Of a stretch of DNA of 64,000 bases, positions 34,973 to 47,996 are shown in pieces (position 1 is the first letter of the stretch; every line of letters starts with the position of its first letter). Under the pieces are notes generated by a model. That model did no database searches, was not told the DNA's origin, and was given only the letters and a program-made list of their open reading frames with translations. Both the position numbers and the translations under genes were made by a program. Source of the DNA: Candidatus Roseilinea mizusawaensis (lineage in GTDB: Bacteria; Chloroflexota; Anaerolineae; J036; Brachytrichaceae). Where the stretch lies: NCBI GenBank assembly GCA_016841965.1, contig JAEANN010000017.1, positions 1 to 64,000 of the forward strand. The letters run 5' to 3'.

Positions 34973-36775
34973 TCATGGTTTGGTGTGATTGGCCGGCCAC
35001 AGCGTTGCCAGGTAGATCGCATACAACATCGGCTTCCCGAACCGATCTAACCCGAAGGTTGCCGCATCGCCGGTCAGTTGGGCGGTCTGACTCAGATCGT
35101 GCGTGCTCAGCGCCCAGTTCACCAGCGTCACCGTCAACAACACATAACCCAGGTACAGAAAGATGCGTCCGGCGCGCGGCAACCCCGGCGAACTGACATT
35201 GGCCCATGATCCGGCGGTCAGAGCATCCCAGATCAGGCCGAATGCGATAAACCCGACGCCGGCAAATCCGAAAAGTGGCGTGAAACGATTGTTGATAAAG
35301 GCTGTCTGTCGCAGGAGTCCGCTTACCAGCACAACCATCAGCAGCGCTGCTGCGCGGGCCGGCGTCAATTCTCGGCGGATCAACCATACCAGTGCCACGA
35401 CGCTAAAAATGATCGTCCACCAGAAATCTGTGTAGGTCGGCCCGTACCAGGTCAGTAAGCTCAGTGGCCGGCCGATGTCGGCCATCTCGATCCACAGCGC
35501 CATCAGACCAAATCCGCACAGATAGACCGCCAGCGCCTGCCGCCCGCGTCTGGCCTGCGTGATGCCGGCGAGAACCACCAGCCCGAAGAACACGACCCGC
35601 CACACCGGCGTGTACTGGTTGTTCAGGAAGTCGGCATAGGCGCTGGCAGCCAGTTCCGCCATGGCCGAAACCTGCCCATCTGCGAAGTTGGCGATGAATG
35701 CCATCACCAGATTCAGCATGACAAAGATGTAGAGCTGCACCAGCGTATAGCCGATGATCAGAGGCAGGGCCGCCTTATCGGCAGCATTCAGCACATGCTC
35801 AGAGGACAGCGGTTCTGATTGCGTGGCGCGGGTTGCAAGCCGCCGCACTGTCCACCACGCAAGGCCAATGCAGGCCGGCACGCCGAATGCACCCACAAAA
35901 GCCCACACTTCCTGCCCGGGCGCACGCAAGAATGTCTCGAGCGCGGTCGTCACGACGTTGTGGAGACGCAACCCTAGCGCGATTGCCATCACCCCCAACA
36001 GTGCGATGCGAGGCAGCCGATCCTGGGCGATCCTGACCACCCAACCGGCTGTGACGTAGGTGAAGTTGGCCATCGACAGCCCAATCAACAACAGCAAGGG
36101 CAAGACGAGCGAGGACAGCGTCTGCACGTGGCCGTTGACTTTGGATACCAGCAACGGCGTGCCGCTGATTTGCCAGTCGGCCAATCCCTGCGCCTGGGGA
36201 AACAGAAAGGTGAGCGAAACCAGGCCCAGCAACACAGAAAACTCGACGCCCAATCGGGGGCGCCGTCGTTGTCTGACCAGAAAGAAGACGATCACGCCGG
36301 CCAGTGCCACAAGCCCGCCCCAGGGGCTACCCCAGCCGGCTGTAGCGCCGATCCATGTCATGCTGACCATCACGAACAGGCTCACGACACCCAGCCGGAT
36401 AGCCCAATGGCTGTGCAACGCCCCGGCCAGCGCGAAACTCCAGGCCATTGCCAGCAGGAACAAAGTGGCCGGCAGCAGCGACAATGGCGCCAGCGTGCCG
36501 CGTCCGGCCAGGCTGTTAGTCAATGGAACGAGATCGGCCGACGCGCGCCAGAAATCGTTGAACAGCAACAGCCCGATCATCAGAACCATCAACGCAAAGC
36601 CGAGCAGGATCAACCCGCGTGTGACGCGCGACAGGCCGCGCAGATCGATCAGGCCGGCCTTCAAGTCTGCCCACACGAAGTCGCGCAGCGCGCCGAACGT
36701 TAGCGCCCAGATCAAGCCGAGCAGGGCTGCCGGCGTGAGCGAGGTCGGTTTCAGCCGGCGCAAGGGATTGCTCAT
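34973..36775 (-). CDS. Large polytopic membrane protein of the envelope cluster
   Basis: About 600 residues from the ATG at 36775, which overlaps the upstream stop as ATGA. Roughly fourteen hydrophobic segments fill the chain, with a cytoplasmic-looking linker near residues 320-345 (TRATQSEPLSSEHV). No transporter, glycosyltransferase or protease motif was recognised. It is translationally coupled to the beta-propeller protein, so the two probably form one complex. Terminal gene of the leftward cluster that begins at 44563. Confidence 0.7.
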   Translation of the reverse strand: MSNPLRRLKPTSLTPAALLGLIWALTFGALRDFVWADLKAGLIDLRGLSRVTRGLILLGFALMVLMIGLLLFNDFWRASADLVPLTNSLAGRGTLAPLSLLPATLFLLAMAWSFALAGALHSHWAIRLGVVSLFVMVSMTWIGATAGWGSPWGGLVALAGVIVFFLVRQRRRPRLGVEFSVLLGLVSLTFLFPQAQGLADWQISGTPLLVSKVNGHVQTLSSLVLPLLLLIGLSMANFTYVTAGWVVRIAQDRLPRIALLGVMAIALGLRLHNVVTTALETFLRAPGQEVWAFVGAFGVPACIGLAWWTVRRLATRATQSEPLSSEHVLNAADKAALPLIIGYTLVQLYIFVMLNLVMAFIANFADGQVSAMAELAASAYADFLNNQYTPVWRVVFFGLVVLAGITQARRGRQALAVYLCGFGLMALWIEMADIGRPLSLLTWYGPTYTDFWWTIIFSVVALVWLIRRELTPARAAALLMVVLVSGLLRQTAFINNRFTPLFGFAGVGFIAFGLIWDALTAGSWANVSSPGLPRAGRIFLYLGYVLLTVTLVNWALSTHDLSQTAQLTGDAATFGLDRFGKPMLYAIYLATLWPANHTKP

Positions 36776-38679
36776 GGCCCCAGCCTCCACAGGATCGCTT
36801 TGGCGTTCACCGCCCAGATGGCGCCACCGCCGACTGTTGGCCCATAGATGAAGTCATAGCGATTGCCTGTCTCGGCAATCCCCACCCGTTCGGAAGTTGC
36901 CCAGTGACGCACCTGCCGGCCGGCCTGGTCGAATAGCCGGAATGTGCCGCCTTCGTCGATTGCCAGGATCGATTGCCCCACCACAAGCGGCGCGCCCGAG
37001 TAGCGGTGCGCCGGGTCTTGCCACAGCCGGCGTCCGTCGTCGGCGGCCAAGCTCGTGAGCCGGCCTGCCTCATCAACCACCACCACAAAGCCGTCGCCTT
37101 TGGCTGGCGCGTAGCGCACGCCTGCCCCAATGCGAGTGACCCATCGCTCCGCGCCGCTGGCAGCTTCTAGCGCAACCAGCGCGCCGGCGTTGCTGGCTGC
37201 ATAGGCCACATCGCCCGCGACCACAATCGGCGCTTCAATTGCTCCGTCGGCCGCGTAGTCCCAGTTCAGCGCGCCGGTCGCTATGTCATAGGCGTACACA
37301 GCCCCATCGTCTGAACCGATCAACGCCAGATCGCCGGCAATCGCCGGCGATGACACAACCGCTGCTCCGGTTTCGGCCTGCCACAGCAGCGCGCCGGTGT
37401 CTGCGTTCAGGGCATATACGTGGCGATCCTCGCTGCCGAAGAGGACGATATCGCCGGCTACTGCCGGGCGCGTGGCCACGTTGTCGCCGACGGCAAACGA
37501 CCAGAGATATAAACCGCGCACATCGAGCGCGTACAACCGCTTGTCGGTTGCGCCAAAGTAAATGCGCCCGCGCGCTGGGTCGAAGGCCGGCGGGCTGAAG
37601 ATGCTGCCGCCGGTGTGAAATCGCCACACCAGATGGCCTGTCTCGGTCACGGCGCTGAAAGCCAGCAGGTCGCCGTTGTAGGCTGCTGCCAGCACGATGG
37701 GCGGATCGATCGGCAGCCATACCGGCGGGATGGTGCTTTCGATCTCTACGCCGGTTAGATTTGCTCTGGCGAATACTGCCAGTCGCCACAGATCGGGCGC
37801 TGTTGCGGGCGCTGTTGCGGGCGCTTGTTGCGCGCCGTTGACCAGAAGCGCCGCCGGCGGAAACTGAGCCGTTGAGGGATTAGGTAAATAGCGCCGGATC
37901 AGCGCGCCAGAGGCATCATGCTCCTCTGTCTCAATCACGCCGGCGCCGGCGCACAACCACTCGGCAGACCTTGTTTCGATGGGGGGCGAACTTAGTAATG
38001 TCAATGTTGATTCAATGCGCAGGCAGTCATCGAATTCGCCCGCCTCTGTCTTGCGCGGCCCGGCTGCCACAACACGGCTCTCACTGCGGTAGCCTGTCGC
38101 GCCGACAATGACACCGTCGCTCTGCCATGATTTGTCCGGCCCCAGGTCAGGGGGATATGCCAAAATTGGCGGATCAAAGACCACATCTGTGGCCGTCTCT
38201 ATGGTGTGAATGCCGATCAGAAACAGCCCGCGCGCTTCGCGCACATATACCGTCAGGGTCGTCGTGATCGTGCCATTCATGTCCATGAAGCGGTGGCGTA
38301 CCTCACTCAACTGAATGCTGCGCAGCCAGCTCGTCGCATCGCCTGTCTTCGAGCCGTCGAGGGGGGCGTAGCGCGCCAGAACTGCTGCGCCTAGGGCAGG
38401 CTTCAGGTCGTAGGTCAGGCCGCGCAGGCTGGGCAGCAGGACGACGTTCTGGCTGTTCCAACCGACCAACACGCCGGCCGGGTCGTAGACGCCGGTCAGG
38501 CGCGAGTCGGCATCCATGGCAGGGACGTAGCGGTCAAGGGCGGGGCCGGCCATATCCGGCTGAGGCATCCAGGGCTGCGCGAAAGCAACACCCACTGCGG
38601 CCACACACACGAATATGGCCAACAGGCCGACCATGTCACGCAGGATATCCAGCCGCTTCGCTTGGTCGGGCGTCCTCAT
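36772..38679 (-). CDS. Membrane-anchored PQQ-type beta-propeller protein
   Basis: About 635 residues from the ATG at 38679 (MRTPDQAKRLD), preceded by GGAG; two in-frame ATGs upstream are alternatives. One transmembrane helix (about 17-37) is followed by an extracytoplasmic domain (about 50-330) and a C-terminal propeller with repeated blade motifs such as GRIYFGATDKRLYALDV, DIVLFGSEDRHVYALNADTGALLWQAETG and DLALIGSDDGAVYAYDIATGALNWDY. Such BamB-like propellers are usually protein-interaction platforms; nothing shows that PQQ is bound. Coupled to the polytopic protein that follows. Confidence 0.8.
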   Translation of the reverse strand: MRTPDQAKRLDILRDMVGLLAIFVCVAAVGVAFAQPWMPQPDMAGPALDRYVPAMDADSRLTGVYDPAGVLVGWNSQNVVLLPSLRGLTYDLKPALGAAVLARYAPLDGSKTGDATSWLRSIQLSEVRHRFMDMNGTITTTLTVYVREARGLFLIGIHTIETATDVVFDPPILAYPPDLGPDKSWQSDGVIVGATGYRSESRVVAAGPRKTEAGEFDDCLRIESTLTLLSSPPIETRSAEWLCAGAGVIETEEHDASGALIRRYLPNPSTAQFPPAALLVNGAQQAPATAPATAPDLWRLAVFARANLTGVEIESTIPPVWLPIDPPIVLAAAYNGDLLAFSAVTETGHLVWRFHTGGSIFSPPAFDPARGRIYFGATDKRLYALDVRGLYLWSFAVGDNVATRPAVAGDIVLFGSEDRHVYALNADTGALLWQAETGAAVVSSPAIAGDLALIGSDDGAVYAYDIATGALNWDYAADGAIEAPIVVAGDVAYAASNAGALVALEAASGAERWVTRIGAGVRYAPAKGDGFVVVVDEAGRLTSLAADDGRRLWQDPAHRYSGAPLVVGQSILAIDEGGTFRLFDQAGRQVRHWATSERVGIAETGNRYDFIYGPTVGGGAIWAVNAKAILWRLGP

Positions 38680-38728
38680 CGCGCCTGACTCCATTGCGCA
38701 ATCGCGCACATGTGCAATCGCTCACACG

Positions 38729-39258: not shown

Positions 39259-40530
39259 CTACTGCTTTTGCAGCTTGAGCTTTGCCTCCACGACTTCGGG
39301 CGTGTCGTCTGTCACTTCAAGATTGTCCTGTGTCACTTCCTTGTAGCCTCTGGCGCCCCAGCCCACGCTATAGGTCTTGCCGCGCTCCAGCAGTTCGGTC
39401 ATCTCGAAGCGGCCCTGTCGGTCGGTTTTGACGGCTTCGAGCACTTCGTCCTCGCTGCCGGTGAAGTCGTCCCAGGTGATTCCAGATTGCAAGACCACGA
39501 ACACTGCGCCGGAAATCGGTTTGCCGGTGTTTGCATCGACGATCGTGCCCACGATCTGCACGCCATCGCTCACCGGCCCATCCGGCTCGTCGGGGCCGGC
39601 TGGCGTTTCACCCATCGCTTCGGCGATCATCTCGCGGGCCAGATTGACGGGCCGCAGGGCGTTGATGAACCCGCCGATGGGGATGCAGGTGTCGGTCTCG
39701 TCGATTTGACCGTCGCCGTTGGTGTCCTGGATGCGCCGGCAGTCTGCGACGTTTGGCGCACTGGCCACGGCAGCCTGAGTGGGCACGCCCACAAGCTGGC
39801 CGGCCTCGTTCAACGCCGTGCCGCCGCTGTTGCCGCCGGAGATGGTCGCATCGGTCTTGATCCACGCGCGCCCCTCGATGCCTTCTTCGCTATCGAAGCC
39901 GCTGACGTTCCCGCGCGTGAACGTGATTGTGTTCCCGCCAATAGTGGGATAGCCATAGATGCGCAGCACATCTTCGATCTCGACGGTGTCAGAGTCGCCC
40001 GGTTCGATGAAAGGCAGGTCGAGCGAGTCTGGATCCACTGCTTCGCCGGACAAATCGCTGCTGATGCGCACCAACGCCAGGTCAATGTCTGGCAAAGCGT
40101 CCACCACATCAGCGATGAACATGGCCACCGGTGGCTGATCGGGTTGCCGGGTGAACAGCACCACCAGCTTGTCTTCCAGAACGGTGACATTCTTTTGGCG
40201 CTTCATGCGCTCGATCAGATCGCTGACATCGACGACATGGTAATTGGTGAGGATCAGGCCGTCAGAAGTGAGCACGGTTCCGCTGCCCCAGCCGAAGAAG
40301 CGCAATTCTTGCTTGCCTTTCTTGTTTTTCACCAGCGCCACCGGCCCCAGTTGCACCACAGCGCGCCACTGTGCTTTGGCAGATGGGCGTTGCTGGTTGC
40401 TACCCTGGCTCGCCGGCGCGGCCTGGGCCGTCCAGGCGCGCAATGGCGAGGCTGCGCCGCTGGTCAGCATTGCCACCAGCACCGCCAGCGCCACGCACGA
40501 CATCTTGAAGAACGGATGAATCCTTCTCAT
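39259..40530 (-). CDS. HtrA/trypsin-like serine protease with regulatory-like C-terminal domain
   Basis: A 423-residue exported protease. A signal peptide or anchor lies at 1-38. The catalytic triad is visible as His in TNYHVVD (about 97), Asp in DIDLALV (about 148) and Ser in TISGGNSGG (about 236). Between protease and tail is a Ca-binding-like loop DTNGDGQIDETD (about 270-281). Residues about 325-423 (VGTIVDANTGKPISGAVFVVLQSG...) form a carboxypeptidase-regulatory-like beta domain that closely resembles the tail of the protein at 42159-42998. No PDZ domain was seen. It overlaps the upstream gene by 4 bases. Confidence 0.87.
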   Translation of the reverse strand: MRRIHPFFKMSCVALAVLVAMLTSGAASPLRAWTAQAAPASQGSNQQRPSAKAQWRAVVQLGPVALVKNKKGKQELRFFGWGSGTVLTSDGLILTNYHVVDVSDLIERMKRQKNVTVLEDKLVVLFTRQPDQPPVAMFIADVVDALPDIDLALVRISSDLSGEAVDPDSLDLPFIEPGDSDTVEIEDVLRIYGYPTIGGNTITFTRGNVSGFDSEEGIEGRAWIKTDATISGGNSGGTALNEAGQLVGVPTQAAVASAPNVADCRRIQDTNGDGQIDETDTCIPIGGFINALRPVNLAREMIAEAMGETPAGPDEPDGPVSDGVQIVGTIVDANTGKPISGAVFVVLQSGITWDDFTGSEDEVLEAVKTDRQGRFEMTELLERGKTYSVGWGARGYKEVTQDNLEVTDDTPEVVEAKLKLQKQ

Positions 40531-41210
40531 GGCACCCTCGCTGATTCAACGAATGCCCGGAACCTCTGTTCGGTCAGGTCTCGATTCTCGCGCGCGGTGA
40601 GCAGACTGAACACGTACACCCGCTCGCCTTTGCGGGCCAGCAGGTCTTCGCCCAGCACAACAGCCGGGATGCCCTGCTGGAACAGGCTGGTCGGATCGTA
40701 CACAAACACGAAACTCGCCGTAGCGCCGGGCAGACCCTTGATGGTCTGCCCGTTCTGGGTGTCGAGCAGTTTGAACGAGGACAGGTCGCGCCCACGATTG
40801 AGCGCCAGCGTATTCAGGGCGGTGGCAAGCGCGTCTTCGTCCCCGGCGTCGGCTGCGACCGGCAGCCAGCGCAGCTCGAAGGTGGTGGGGTATTCGGTTG
40901 CCAGGCTGTCGCTGACGCGAATCAGGCCGATCTCGGCGCTTGTCGCGTCCAGCCGCCACGCTTCGGGATACGCGATCGTCACGCCGGCGGGGTCGGCATA
41001 TGATTTGACGCGCGCCTCGACAGCGTTGCGCCACAGCAGGCCGGCCAGAATGGCCACCAGTGTGACGATCACCGTCAGCAGGGCCGACATCTGATCGCGT
41101 GTGTTGATGCGGAACACGGGCGCATTGCGGGTTGTGGTGTGGGCGGACGAAGTCCGGGCGGACGGAGTCCGGGCGGACGGAGTCGGAGCGGACGGAGTCC
41201 GAGTTGTCAT
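40527..41210 (-). CDS. Single-pass anchored protein with the PrsW-associated domain
   Basis: A 227-residue protein. A Pro/Ser/Thr/Arg-rich head (residues 5-30) encoded by 15-base repeats is followed by one transmembrane helix (about 43-60), then an extracytoplasmic domain of about 160 residues (GVTIAYPEAWRLDATSAEI...FRAFVESARVP). That domain aligns by eye with the C-terminal half of the fused PrsW-like protein at 43103-44563 (shared YP, RV.D, LA..R, P.VV.G.D, F..FV.S). It looks like a PsbP/Mog1-type beta-sandwich, which is inference. Sits between a PrsW-like gene and the HtrA-like gene, with ATGA coupling to the latter. Confidence 0.65.
   Translation of the reverse strand: MTTRTPSAPTPSARTPSARTSSAHTTTRNAPVFRINTRDQMSALLTVIVTLVAILAGLLWRNAVEARVKSYADPAGVTIAYPEAWRLDATSAEIGLIRVSDSLATEYPTTFELRWLPVAADAGDEDALATALNTLALNRGRDLSSFKLLDTQNGQTIKGLPGATASFVFVYDPTSLFQQGIPAVVLGEDLLARKGERVYVFSLLTARENRDLTEQRFRAFVESARVP
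41143..41202 (-). repeat. 15-base tandem repeat x4 in the N-terminus of the anchored protein
   Basis: Four units of GCGGACGGAGTCCGG type with few changes. Each unit contains a CGGAC...GTCCG inverted repeat and encodes five residues (PSART type), so length changes stay in frame. Confidence 0.9.
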
Positions 41211-41220
41211 GGCGCGCCTC

Positions 41221-42108
41221 CTACTGTTGATCCGCGTCGGCGCCGGTCAGGGTGAGCTGATTGGCCCGCCGCATGAGGGCAAAGGTCACACCCAGCAGCG
41301 CGACGGCGACGACTGTCGCCAGCGCCAGCGCCGGCCAGGGGTTGTAGCCGCCGCTCGCGCCTGTTGCGCTGATCGTCAGGGGCGACGTGGTGATCTCGCC
41401 GGCCAGCCATGTGAACAGGCCGTTGATGACCGCCGCCAGTGTCAGGCCGGCCGGCATCCACCAGACGGGTTCGTCGTCGAACTTGGTGCGCGCGATGAAG
41501 TAGCCGGTGAATCCGCCCAGGGTTGCCTGCACCAGTGTCACAATCACGATGCGGATGATGCCGGCGCCGAGTTGTTCCGCGGCAATGCCGCCGCTGTTGG
41601 CCACCATGGCGATATTGATGAAGGTGGCATAGCCCAGGCCGGCGGCTGTGCCGTAGATCACCCCGTCGATGCGCTCATCGAATTCGTTCGAGTAATAGAT
41701 GCTGTAGCGCACGGCGGCGTACTTCAGAAACTCTTGGGTAAAGCCGACGATCAGGATCGCGCCGAGAATTTCGGTCAGGGGGTCATGACCGATCCACTGC
41801 GGCGCGCGGGCAATGTCGTTGATAAACGGCTGTCCCACGGCTGCCGCCAGCAATGCGCCCAGCACGCCTACTGCCAGCATGTATTGGCGCGGCTCCGGCT
41901 CGACGCGATCCTGGGCATAGAAGAAGGCCATCCAGAGGGCGGCCGGCACGATCGCCAGCACAATCCCAACCGGCAGCAGCATCTCCCGCCCAATGGTTGG
42001 ATTGAGCACGGCAACAATCAGTTCTGCCACTGCGACGTAGACGAGCAGGCCGACGATCTCGATCAAGCCGGCTCGCCAGACGCTTTGGCGGTTGCGCGCA
42101 ACATTCAC
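41221..42108 (-). CDS. PrsW-like membrane protein (probably inactive)
   Basis: A 295-residue protein with about eight transmembrane helices. PrsW-family landmarks: FFYAQDRVEPEP (about 63-74), QEFLKYAAVRYSIYYSNEFDERIDGVIYGTAAGLGYA (about 125-161). The family usually has EE-x2-K, then a Glu in the EN-x2-Y-type block and a late His as catalytic or metal positions. Here these read QE, IN and Gln/Asn, so protease activity is doubtful. Paralogue of the N-terminal half of 43103-44563. Located 11 bases upstream of the anchored-domain gene, as if that fused protein were split in two. Confidence 0.75.
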   Translation of the reverse strand: MNVARNRQSVWRAGLIEIVGLLVYVAVAELIVAVLNPTIGREMLLPVGIVLAIVPAALWMAFFYAQDRVEPEPRQYMLAVGVLGALLAAAVGQPFINDIARAPQWIGHDPLTEILGAILIVGFTQEFLKYAAVRYSIYYSNEFDERIDGVIYGTAAGLGYATFINIAMVANSGGIAAEQLGAGIIRIVIVTLVQATLGGFTGYFIARTKFDDEPVWWMPAGLTLAAVINGLFTWLAGEITTSPLTISATGASGGYNPWPALALATVVAVALLGVTFALMRRANQLTLTGADADQQ

Positions 42109-42124
42109 GACGACGCCTCCTCTC

Positions 42125-42168
42125 TACTTCTTCGACTTCTTCTACTTCTTCTACTTGTCTACTTCTTC
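42125..42168 (-). repeat. TACTTCTTC nonamer array at the 3' end of a CDS
   Basis: Five units (TACTTCTTC, GACTTCTTC, TACTTCTTC, an 8-base TACTTGTC, TACTTCTTC). The stop codon and last Lys codons of the gene at 42159 fall in it; on the coding strand the unit GAAGAAGTA offers repeated in-frame TAG stops. Confidence 0.85.
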
Positions 42169-42998
42169 ACCAGCTTGATGTCCAGCACCAGCGGGTCTTC
42201 GATGTCCTCTTCGAGCGCCCAGTCTTCCCGGATGATTGGCTTGTAACCCTGCGCCCCGATCAGCCAGGAATGGGGGACGCCGATCTCGATGGGATTGTCC
42301 AGCACAAACTGGCCTTTGCTGTCGGTTTTGGCCGAAGCGAAGATTTCCTCGTCTGTGCCGTTGTCGAGCCAGTCTTCTGCTGACACACCTTCATTCAGCA
42401 CCACGACTACCGCGCCCTTGATCGGTTTCTTGCTCTTCGAATCGACAATCGTGCCCTGCACCGTCACGGCATCGGGCGTTGGCCCATCGCCGCCGATCAC
42501 CACCGCGCCGGATGTCAGCAACTCTTCGCCGATATAGAACTCGACACCGTATTCGGCATCGGGCAAAGGTGACTCGTCCTTCATGTACAGATAGGCCTGC
42601 CACACATCCGGCTGGTTGCTTGCCTTAGGCTTGTCTTCTGAGGTGAGCACGGCTTCGCCGTCCATGTACCACACCGTGACCAGCGTGGTTTTGCGCGGGA
42701 CGCAGTTGTACTCGAACTGGGCGGTGATGCGCGTCGCGCCGGTGGGATAGCTCTCGACTTCCTCTTCCACCTCGCCTTCCTCGTTCAGCGTGACCCACAC
42801 GACGTCGCCGGCCTGCATGGCTGTGCAGCGCGAGGTCTGCGCCGCCGGCGCTTCAACCGCGCTGTGTTGCGCCGCAGCCGGCGCCGAATCCCCGGCGAAC
42901 CTTATGGCGCGCTCGGCATAAGCTGTGCCGGCGGCCGAAACTAGCAAGCCCAGGGTGATGCCTAGTGCAACGATCCACAGTTGTTTGATCTGTCTCAT
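42159..42998 (-). CDS. Exported protein with carboxypeptidase-regulatory-like domain
   Basis: A 279-residue protein with a signal peptide or anchor (residues 1-28, ...SAAGTAYAE). A central beta-rich region (about 55-175) is followed by a C-terminal domain VQGTIVDSKSKKPIKGAVVVVLNEG...AKTDSKGQFVLDNPIEIG...GYKPIIRED, strongly similar to the tail of the HtrA-like protease at 39259. It may therefore share its binding partner. No catalytic residues were recognised. Located between two PrsW-like genes in the leftward cluster. Confidence 0.72.
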   Translation of the reverse strand: MRQIKQLWIVALGITLGLLVSAAGTAYAERAIRFAGDSAPAAAQHSAVEAPAAQTSRCTAMQAGDVVWVTLNEEGEVEEEVESYPTGATRITAQFEYNCVPRKTTLVTVWYMDGEAVLTSEDKPKASNQPDVWQAYLYMKDESPLPDAEYGVEFYIGEELLTSGAVVIGGDGPTPDAVTVQGTIVDSKSKKPIKGAVVVVLNEGVSAEDWLDNGTDEEIFASAKTDSKGQFVLDNPIEIGVPHSWLIGAQGYKPIIREDWALEEDIEDPLVLDIKLVKK

Positions 42999-43102
42999 CT
43001 CAAAATCCTCCTCGTCGATCAGGCGAACCCGCTACCCGTGTCCGACGAACACTGTGCAGGCCGTCTGTCGGAGATGCTGGACATTTGCCCATCAAGTTGC
43101 TG

Positions 43103-44563
43103 TCAAAATGACAGGCTGCTGACGAAACGCTCGAACTGGGGTTGAACGGCGCCGATGGTGTCGGGCGTAGCGACTAATGTGACAACGACAACGGCGTTGT
43201 CTGTGACGAAGAGGTAATCGACGCCCTGAAAGACTTGGGGCACAGCGCCAGTCAATCCGCCCTGGTCTACCCAGGCGAACTCCTGAAGGGTGGCCGTCCG
43301 GCTGTTCACCATGGTCTGGCCGGTGCGCACTACCTTGTACATGAGGTTGTTGGCGGCGCGCTCGGCGGCCAGCATCGATGTGATGGCTTTGATGTCCTTG
43401 CCCGCCGGCATCGCCATCGTTCTGACAATGAACTCGGCGCCGGTGCCGGTGCGGTCAGCCACGCGCACCACTTCACGCGTTCCTGTGGCAATGCTGAAAT
43501 GAGTCGGGTAGGCCCCGCGAATGCCGTCCTTCTCGAAAGCCGTCGCGCCGTTGACGGCGCTGTTCCAGCCGATGATGCCAACGATCAGCATCACGACAAA
43601 CACCCCCACCGTCGCCAGATTCGCCTGGCGATCGCCCACCGTGGCGTCTTCGGCGGCGCCGGCCGTCTGGCCGCTGGCCGAGGCTGCGACATCACGGTTG
43701 ATCAGCCAGGCGACCAGGGCTGTGACCACGATAGCCAGTGCGCCGGCCAGCAACAGGCCGGTCAGGGTCGGCAGGCCGGCGGCTTGCGCATCAGTGGAGA
43801 TCGATCCGCTTTCCAACTGGCCGCGCAGCATCAGGAACAAGCCGTTCAAGGCCGCAGTAATCACGAATCCGAGCGGCAGCCACCAGATGGGGTCGCGCTG
43901 CATCTTGGCGTGGCCGAGGAAATAGCCCAGCAATCCGCCAAATGCTGCGTAGGCAAGCGCTACTTCGACCACGTACACTTCCGCGCCGCCCAGCGCCGCG
44001 CCGCCGCTGCCGAGGATGAATTGCAGATTGGTCGCTGTGGCATAGCCCAGGCCGGCTGCCATGCCATAGATCACGCCGTCGGTGCGCTCGTCGAACTCCG
44101 GCGAGTCGAATATGAAGTAGCGCACAGTGGCGTAGATGATGAACGTCTCGATTGCGCCGCGCACGAAGACGGCGCCGATCAGGGTGTTGGCCAAATCACG
44201 GAACAGCCAGTCCTGGGTGCGGAAAACCTGATCGCTCAGCGGCACGCCGATCGCGCCGGCCAGCGCAAGCCCGATCACAAACATCTGGGCCACATGTCCG
44301 ACCGGCTCCGGCTCCACCCGATCTTGCAAATAGAAGAAGATCAGCCACAGCACCGCCGGCACAAGCGCCAGCACGACCCCCACGGCCAGCAGACCAATCC
44401 CCGACAATTGCGGTTGCAGCGCAACATCGATGGCTGCCACCGCAGCAACAAAAATCAACAAGACAATCAACGTAATGACAGCCGATCGCCAAACACCAGA
44501 ACGAGGTTGGGCTGCTTTCGCGTAACGGTTCGGCCCGGAACTGGCAGAAGACTGCTGAGACAT
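43103..44563 (-). CDS. PrsW-like membrane protein fused to the anchored extracytoplasmic domain
   Basis: About 486 residues from the ATG at 44563, set by AGGAGG upstream; a longer frame is unsupported. Residues about 25-290 carry PrsW-type landmarks (FFYLQDRVEPEP; IETFIIYATVRYFIFDSPEFDERTDGVIYGMAAGLGYATATN). A further transmembrane helix (about 325-345) leads to a 140-residue extracytoplasmic domain (GAYPTHFSIATGTREVVRV...FERFVSSLSF) like the protein at 40527. Canonical PrsW residues are again missing (IE for EE, Ile for Lys, TN for EN). It begins the leftward cluster. Confidence 0.75.
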   Translation of the reverse strand: MSQQSSASSGPNRYAKAAQPRSGVWRSAVITLIVLLIFVAAVAAIDVALQPQLSGIGLLAVGVVLALVPAVLWLIFFYLQDRVEPEPVGHVAQMFVIGLALAGAIGVPLSDQVFRTQDWLFRDLANTLIGAVFVRGAIETFIIYATVRYFIFDSPEFDERTDGVIYGMAAGLGYATATNLQFILGSGGAALGGAEVYVVEVALAYAAFGGLLGYFLGHAKMQRDPIWWLPLGFVITAALNGLFLMLRGQLESGSISTDAQAAGLPTLTGLLLAGALAIVVTALVAWLINRDVAASASGQTAGAAEDATVGDRQANLATVGVFVVMLIVGIIGWNSAVNGATAFEKDGIRGAYPTHFSIATGTREVVRVADRTGTGAEFIVRTMAMPAGKDIKAITSMLAAERAANNLMYKVVRTGQTMVNSRTATLQEFAWVDQGGLTGAVPQVFQGVDYLFVTDNAVVVVTLVATPDTIGAVQPQFERFVSSLSF

Positions 44564-46963: not shown

Positions 46964-47329
46964 CTACGACAAGCTGGTGGACGGGCCGGCGGCGTCCTTG
47001 GATTCGGCCTGCTGGACAAATTGCTCCAGGTGCAGGCGGAAAAGCAGGCGCTGCCGGACATCCGAGGGCAACACTGCTGCTGTGGCAGTGGTGGCCTGAT
47101 ACAACTCCACCGTTTTGTGCAGCGTGTCTACCACGATCCGGCAACGCTCGCAGCCGGCCATGTGCCGCTCGATCTCTGCGCAGATTTCATCGGCCAGGTC
47201 GCCATCCACATAGTCGGACAATGATCCGAGCAACTGACGGCACTGCGCGTGATCGTGCGCGTGATCGTGCGCGTGATCGTGCGCGTGATTGCTCAGACTG
47301 CCGGCTTCGGGTTGATAGCTCATGCTCAT
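46964..47329 (-). CDS. Zinc-finger anti-sigma factor with His-rich N-terminus
   Basis: A 121-residue protein. HMAGCERC (about 56-63), with the earlier CRQLL, matches the zinc-binding anti-sigma (ZAS) HxxxCxxC pattern. The N-terminus contains four HAHD-type units encoded by a 12-base repeat, which is not part of the family and could bind metal. The gene starts 4 bases after the ECF sigma stop, the normal sigma/anti-sigma pairing. No transmembrane helix, so a soluble redox- or metal-responsive anti-sigma is likely. Confidence 0.82.
   Translation of the reverse strand: MSMSYQPEAGSLSNHAHDHAHDHAHDHAQCRQLLGSLSDYVDGDLADEICAEIERHMAGCERCRIVVDTLHKTVELYQATTATAAVLPSDVRQRLLFRLHLEQFVQQAESKDAAGPSTSLS
47245..47292 (-). 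repeat. 12-base tandem repeat encoding HDHA units
   Basis: Three perfect copies of GCGCGTGATCGT and a fourth changed one. Codes for the His/Asp/Ala-rich head of the anti-sigma factor without a frame shift. Confidence 0.92.
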
Positions 47330-47333
47330 GCTT

Positions 47334-47996
47334 TCAGGCTCCTCGACCGTTGTGATTGTCGATCGGCGTGCTCAGCAGCCGCTCGTTGTAGTAAGCGGAT
47401 AACTGTTCGCGCAGATTCAGCCGGGCGCGCAGCAGCCTGGTCTTCACGGCTGCTTCGGTCACGTTTAAGGCTTCGGCTGTTTCGCGCACCGACAGGCCCT
47501 CGATATCGCGCAGCAGAAATACGGCTTTCAGCGCCGGCGACAGGCGGTCGATGGCTTGATCGAGATGATCGCGCGCCTCAGATGACAGCAGTTCCTCTTC
47601 TGGCAGGCAACACCAATCCACGATTTGGATTGGTTCCTGTTCGCCATCTGGCGTTGGCTGGGCTTCGTCCACTGAGATGGCGTCGGGTTTGCGCCGCCGC
47701 AGCGCCATGAACGCTTCGTTGGCGGCAATCCGGTATAGCCAGGTCGAGATGCTGGAACGGCCTTCGAAGTCGGGCAAGGCGCGGAAAGCTTTCAAGAACG
47801 TCTCTTGAAGCACGTCCTCGGCATCTTGTGTGTCTCCCAGAATCTTCAACGCCAGCCGGTAAATAGGGCCGGAATACCTGTCGACCAGACGGGCGAATTC
47901 TGCCCGATCGCCGGCCCGCAACGCAGTCAGTGAAAACTCGGTACGGCCATCGCTGCGCTCACCCGATGGTTGCAAAGCAGTTGCACTTTTAGCCAT
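47334..47996 (-). CDS. ECF RNA polymerase sigma factor
   Basis: A 220-residue sigma-70 group IV protein. Region 2 is around 27-95 (FARLVDRYSGPIYRLALKILGDTQDAEDVLQETFLKAFRAL...STWLYRIAANEA), a Glu/Asp-rich linker with a CC pair, and region 4 around 140-195 (LSPALKAVFLLRDIEGLSVRETAEALNVTEAAVKTRLLRARLNL). It redirects polymerase to a stress regulon and is held by the adjacent anti-sigma. Its start overlaps the xer stop by 8 bases. Candidate targets: the PDO and osmC genes downstream. Confidence 0.93.
   Translation of the reverse strand: MAKSATALQPSGERSDGRTEFSLTALRAGDRAEFARLVDRYSGPIYRLALKILGDTQDAEDVLQETFLKAFRALPDFEGRSSISTWLYRIAANEAFMALRRRKPDAISVDEAQPTPDGEQEPIQIVDWCCLPEEELLSSEARDHLDQAIDRLSPALKAVFLLRDIEGLSVRETAEALNVTEAAVKTRLLRARLNLREQLSAYYNERLLSTPIDNHNGRGA

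Follow-up and report, generated by a model that had tools for sequence, protein, structure and literature searches.

Two PrsW-like membrane proteins of Candidatus Roseilinea mizusawaensis, P1 and P2, belong to a clade whose members have lost catalytic residues of the PrsW proteases and are encoded beside an exported protein with a carboxypeptidase-regulatory-like (CREG) domain. From sequence comparison and analogy we propose, with a probability of about 0.6, that these pseudo-PrsWs act as scaffolds that would dock or restrain a CREG-domain surface protein, in the manner of iRhom–ADAM17 or SpdC–SagB. In the open-access literature searched, we found no earlier account of a clade of this kind.

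P1 and P2 are encoded in a module on the minus strand of the window, the 64,000-nucleotide stretch of DNA that was analysed (Table 1). In the direction of transcription the genes follow in the order listed, with gaps of 104, 50, 10 and −4 bp. The C-terminal part of P2 is homologous to the separate PsbP-like gene, forming a natural fusion. The Pfam scan returned no match for that separate gene itself, and a relative found by profile (L130:6229–6852) has a Pfam PsbP match of 28.7 bits. The CREG domain is C-terminal in the trypsin-like partner; in the protein that carries CREG without a catalytic domain, the PF13620 match falls just below the cut-off of 32.3 bits (30.7 bits, E = 4e-07). After the module, in the same direction (34973–38709, minus strand), come a beta-propeller (PQQ) protein, for which a DUF3108-like match was weak, and a membrane protein of 605 aa. 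Both adjoin the module in the two congeners and in L036 as well. The minus strand also carries, about 3 kb away (46964–47996), a sigma-70-type gene (47334–47996) followed by one for a small Cys/His-rich protein (46964–47329), which could be its anti-sigma factor.

Table 1. Genes of the pseudo-PrsW module in the window
Product	Positions	Strand	Length	Matches and remarks
P2, pseudo-PrsW membrane domain, TM helix and exported PsbP-like domain	43103..44563	−	486 aa	PF13367, 47.4 bits; ATG at 44563
CREG protein without catalytic domain: N-terminal hydrophobic stretch, CREG_N beta domain, CREG	42159..42998	−		PF13620
P1, stand-alone pseudo-PrsW, 8 long predicted helices	41221..42108	−	295 aa	PF13367, 64.6 bits
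PsbP-like protein, N-terminal TM anchor and exported domain	40527..41210	−		10 bp after P1
Exported trypsin-like serine protease with C-terminal CREG	39259..40530	−		PF13365, 82.7 bits; PF13620, 34.7 bits

Both P1 and P2 match the PrsW family above the Pfam cut-off of 23.5 bits. They fall below the cut-off of 225 bits for the equivalog of the glutamic-type protease PrsW (NCBIfam NF033739; 78.1 and 85.4 bits), a result of little weight because the intact PrsW of the same genome also fails (58.2 bits). Active PrsW proteins carry an EExxK motif in the first catalytic helix, a conserved His in TMH5 and an HxxxD-type His in TMH6 (PMC4602095). As the reference for aligning P1 and P2 we used that intact PrsW (L001), which is encoded on another contig and reads EEILK, VEN, MHGFW and SHVLHN. 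Against the pattern EE..K / E / H / H of the active set, P1 reads QE..K / I / Q / N (Q125-E126-K129, I164-N165, Q194 and N229) and P2 reads ET..I / T / Y / N (E139-T140-I143, T178-N179, Y205 and N240). Both proteins thus depart from EExxK, P2 having kept just its first Glu and P1 its second Glu along with the Lys; both also lack the motif-2 Glu present in L001 (I164 and T178), the TMH5 His (Q194 and Y205) and the TMH6 HxxxD-type His (N229 and N240). The sole His of P1, H108, lies in the loop before motif 1, so that a shifted catalytic His is not possible in this protein, and the three of P2 (H90, H218 and H355) occupy none of the catalytic positions. These His positions and the clade alignment described below rule out shifted catalytic residues. 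An earlier note on this DNA had suggested that both paralogues have lost the catalytic residues and have no obvious late His at a catalytic place, and both points are borne out by the alignment to L001 and by a comparison of 150 domains. Its residues QEFLK, IN and TN were also correct; motif 1 of P2 is ETFII, one residue later than the IETFI it gave, because YAAVR/YATVR fixes the register. By sequence, P1 and P2 are pseudoproteases and are probably without proteolytic activity.

The loss extends well beyond this genome. Relatives were collected from related genomes and by a scan of GTDB genomes, which found 355 stretches encoding a relative and from which we retained the best 79 loci; because a single peptide pattern drove the scan, close relatives are over-represented among these loci. 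The labels of the scanned relatives are nearly all Chloroflexota or a group within it. The module also occurs in contigs labelled Coprothermobacterota (L094) and Candidatus Fermentibacteraceae (L141), labels that may reflect misbinning or transfer. We split 150 distinct domains on the motif-2 Glu into 102 without it (pseudo) and 48 with it (active), so that its frequencies of 0% and 100% are the splitting criterion itself. The first Glu of motif 1 is present in 29% of the pseudo set versus 98% of the active set, the motif-1 Lys in 35% versus 98% and the TM5 His in 20% (20/102) versus 98%; at TM6, where some active rows align poorly, no position of the pseudo clade has a conserved His. This pattern of catalytic loss is far beyond chance. 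The motif-2 Glu defines the active set; separate support comes from the remaining motifs and from the tree. In a tree of selected rows one branch divides the two sets (SH-aLRT 99), and the two clades persist (SH-aLRT 100) after removal of the catalytic columns and of four long or odd rows. The earlier note had asked whether homologues in other Chloroflexota retain these residues; the same loss is found clade-wide, the motif-2 Glu being absent throughout.

Within the pseudo clade, motif 1 has eroded in several directions, QE..K being common, EE..K surviving in a few members and others reading ET..I, YQ, WQ or YT. The pseudo-PrsWs of L046, L100, L084, L085, L101, L125 and L127 keep the motif-1 EE, and some of them also the TM5 His, without the motif-2 Glu. 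These are possible intermediates of the loss, and members that keep EE..K with or without the TM5 His, such as L046 and L100, might possess residual or unusual chemistry. Inside the active set, L162:901–2448 (VE..T) and L184:660–2672 (Ile for the TM5 His) have odd motifs and are perhaps other, separate losses of activity. Four residues of the pseudo clade, W105, R134, E145 and R146, hardly vary within it and are seldom seen in active PrsW. Comparison with two congeners gave dN/dS values of 0.09–0.11 for P1 and 0.10–0.17 for P2. Both genes are under purifying selection, and the proteins are kept for something. A local pseudogene or sequencing error is ruled out by these values together with the clade-wide loss.

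The serine protease encoded at the end of the module had been taken in the earlier note for an intact, HtrA-type enzyme. Its triad is indeed intact (H98, D150 and S235), as in all 68 trypsin-like domains found by profile (68/68). It is not HtrA proper, however: its TIGR02037 score of 64.4 bits compares with a cut-off of 416.2 and lies far below every HtrA/Deg equivalog cut-off, the Pfam scan found no PDZ domain, and CREG follows the protease domain.

The partners of the pseudo-PrsWs were surveyed in the 79 scanned loci and the window, which together hold 85 pseudo-PrsW genes, many of them on short MAG contigs. Forty-eight have a trypsin–CREG partner, 21 a thermolysin–CREG partner and nine a CREG protein without a catalytic domain; for six of the seven with none, the contig stops on the very side on which a partner should lie. 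A CREG protein therefore adjoins the pseudo-PrsW in 78 of the 79 assessable cases, almost always together with a PsbP-like exported protein, and in the sole exception (L118, whose genome was matched to G118 by contig position) a CREG protein, an 883-aa frame of thermolysin-type length, is on another contig. L135, counted among the nine CREG-only cases, is a fragment at the end of a contig and groups within the thermolysin branch of the tree, which brings the split closer to 22 thermolysin and 8 non-catalytic. The thermolysin type is also carried by the cultured Chloroflexus islandicus (L145). The HE[FL]TH motif is present in 28 of 29 thermolysin hits, the remaining one being a fragment. Trypsin–CREG and CREG-only genes come after the pseudo-PrsW, and thermolysin–CREG genes before it. 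On the tree the partner type needs three changes, with the trypsin type widespread and the thermolysin and CREG-only types nested within it. HtrA as the constant partner is ruled out by the thermolysin and protease-free partners. In the subset of neighbours that was scanned, Pfam matches identified S1 peptidases, M4 peptidases or CREG proteins. Two loci encode two tandem trypsin-type proteins after one pseudo-PrsW (L095:1904–6538 and L102:6108–10331).

Chance neighbourhood is ruled out by a control set of 20 active PrsW loci: within about 5 kb, where contigs allow, none of them has a hit for trypsin, M4 or PsbP, and CREG hits are confined to a single large protein. In a 121-genome sample of the phylum, the pseudo-PrsW and the CREG subfamily were found in exactly the same 11 genomes; a twelfth hit (G114), weaker than the rest, is an active PrsW. 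Among 60 relatives including the genome studied here, 29 have both, two only the pseudo-PrsW and one only CREG, and the three discordant genomes show short contigs or fragments. The p-values of this co-occurrence are too small owing to the relatedness of the genomes and are indicative only. The window's genome has 11 generic PF13620 matches, whereas the CREG subfamily occurs only twice, both times in the module. Taken together, these data support a real and old link of pseudo-PrsW to a protease, and show that it is the C-terminal CREG domain, not the protease, that stays constant among the partners. The suggestion in the earlier note that two pseudoproteases beside a protease would serve as its sensors, adaptors or substrate presenters thus survives in part, in that genes of the P1 type lie beside a trypsin-like domain in much of the clade. 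What is constant is CREG. As an account of P1, an adaptor for a protease is partly correct; it falls short for P2, which belongs to a branch whose own partner (42159–42998) has no protease domain.

The partners are taken to lie outside the cell from their N-terminal hydrophobic segments: a hydrophobic helix precedes the PsbP-like domain in every separate version (67/67), and an N-terminal hydrophobic stretch is present in 46 of 50 trypsin proteins. An AF2 model of P1 (mean pLDDT 93, pTM 0.91) was compared with the PDB. The best matches were APH-1 (Z 14.2 for 5a63_C, 12.6 for 8oqy_C, and 12.1) and chain 6 of the multipass translocon structure 7tm3 (Z 13.0), which we take to be TMEM147. The next unrelated rows followed after a clear gap at Z 7.9, and SpdC–SagB (6u0o) was a weak match at Z 7.5. 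The predicted fold of P1 is thus APH-1/TMEM147-like, a Z near 13 for helical bundles not being proof by itself. Searches of solved structures gave no match to PrsW by sequence, so the resemblance may hold for the PrsW fold generally and not for the pseudo clade specifically; a profile search of PDB sequences gave no hit, APH-1 and TMEM147 included. The AF2 model of the CREG protein 42159–42998 (pLDDT 94, pTM 0.58) is beta-rich in two parts. The CREG profile had no significant hit among PDB sequences; the fold class of CREG may be comparable to that of the prealbumin-like domains of NOMO.

Catalytic loss under continued constraint, a dedicated partner that is exported, and a predicted fold resembling that of non-proteolytic scaffolds point to a scaffold or cofactor. 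We propose that P1 and P2 would be non-cutting, PrsW-derived membrane proteins, each paired with a PsbP-like exported subunit. The pseudo-PrsW would hold the exported CREG protein at the outer face of the membrane in a physical complex and control its folding, placement or activity. Where CREG is joined to a trypsin-like or thermolysin domain, the result would be a membrane-docked surface protease held, and presumably controlled, by a dead one. That the catalytic domain changes while CREG stays suggests that CREG is the part held and recognised.

Known systems offer partial parallels. With the PrsW family (PF13367, MEROPS M82; for example, Bacillus subtilis PrsW) the pseudo-PrsWs share domain-wide homology, the D..EPEP and FD...DG..YG landmarks and the helix layout, but they differ in the clade-wide loss of the Glu/His set and in their constant exported partners, and no sign of an RsiW-type sigma pathway was seen. 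APH-1 of gamma-secretase and TMEM147 of the BOS complex, the best fold matches of P1, are both non-proteolytic multi-pass scaffolds. APH-1 is placed in the same superfamily, and its QExxR corresponds to the QExxK of P1 (PMC6588880), but it keeps two membrane histidines whereas the membrane helices of P1 have none. The partners of these two proteins are nicastrin or nicalin and presenilin or Sec61, and the TMEM147 complex includes NOMO, which is built of prealbumin-like domains (PMC7505659, PMC11186639). In Staphylococcus aureus, SpdC, a CAAX-protease homologue of the CPBP/Abi family, scaffolds the membrane-associated hydrolase SagB (PMC10581084), although it represents a different branch of the superfamily and SagB is a glucosaminidase. 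In animals, iRhom2 is an essential cofactor of ADAM17, a membrane pseudoprotease that guides its traffic and restrains it (PMC11248996). It is likewise dedicated to a surface protease, but its fold is that of a rhomboid and the analogy is one of working only. That the pseudo-PrsWs form a bacterial complex of the APH-1/TMEM147 type across Chloroflexota, in which a PrsW-derived dead protease and an exported prealbumin-like (CREG) partner belong to a constant core of scaffold, PsbP-like protein and CREG while serine protease and thermolysin are exchanged, seems to us quite unlikely.

Other readings of the same observations have to be weighed. The pseudo-PrsW and PsbP-like protein might be an export or maturation chaperone that aids the CREG protein in crossing the membrane and folding and then releases it, with no lasting complex or regulation, as might be expected of a TMEM147-like fold, that of a translocon subunit (PMC7505659). 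Most partners do have an N-terminal hydrophobic stretch, and the pairing is dedicated and nearly one-to-one, without many cargoes per genome, although one helper per cargo would be costly. Sec export of secreted proteases ordinarily needs no such partner, which further counts against a chaperone, and we consider this explanation possible but unlikely. The gene pairing could also arise from shared regulation or export without contact.

A sensor that relays an external signal into the cell, in the way that PrsW acts through anti-sigma-factor cleavage, would be in keeping with PrsW ancestry and with the sigma-70-type gene 3 kb away. Among the loci searched with the window proteins, however, linkage to the sigma-factor gene is confined to the congener L034 and is not seen clade-wide, and the constant partners are exported, so that a role in signalling is very unlikely. 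We judge it highly improbable that these proteins are still proteases with a rebuilt active site, whether formed by the acidic/Arg cluster (D67, E70, E72, D144, E145, R146 and D148) or by the remaining motif-1 Glu. The cluster is strongly conserved and P1 keeps E126 and K129, but D67, E70, E72, D144 and D148 are conserved in active PrsW too and therefore look structural, motif 1 varies freely in the clade, and no conserved His is left.

Pfam names these proteins PrsW proteases, and proteolysis should not be inferred from that name. If the scaffold reading is true, bacterial intramembrane proteases became partners of surface proteases, as rhomboids did in animals with iRhom, and the module would provide a simple setting in bacteria for asking how an inactive membrane protease holds an active one. 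A swap of serine protease for metalloprotease on a single scaffold would then point to recognition of the docking domain and not of the enzyme.
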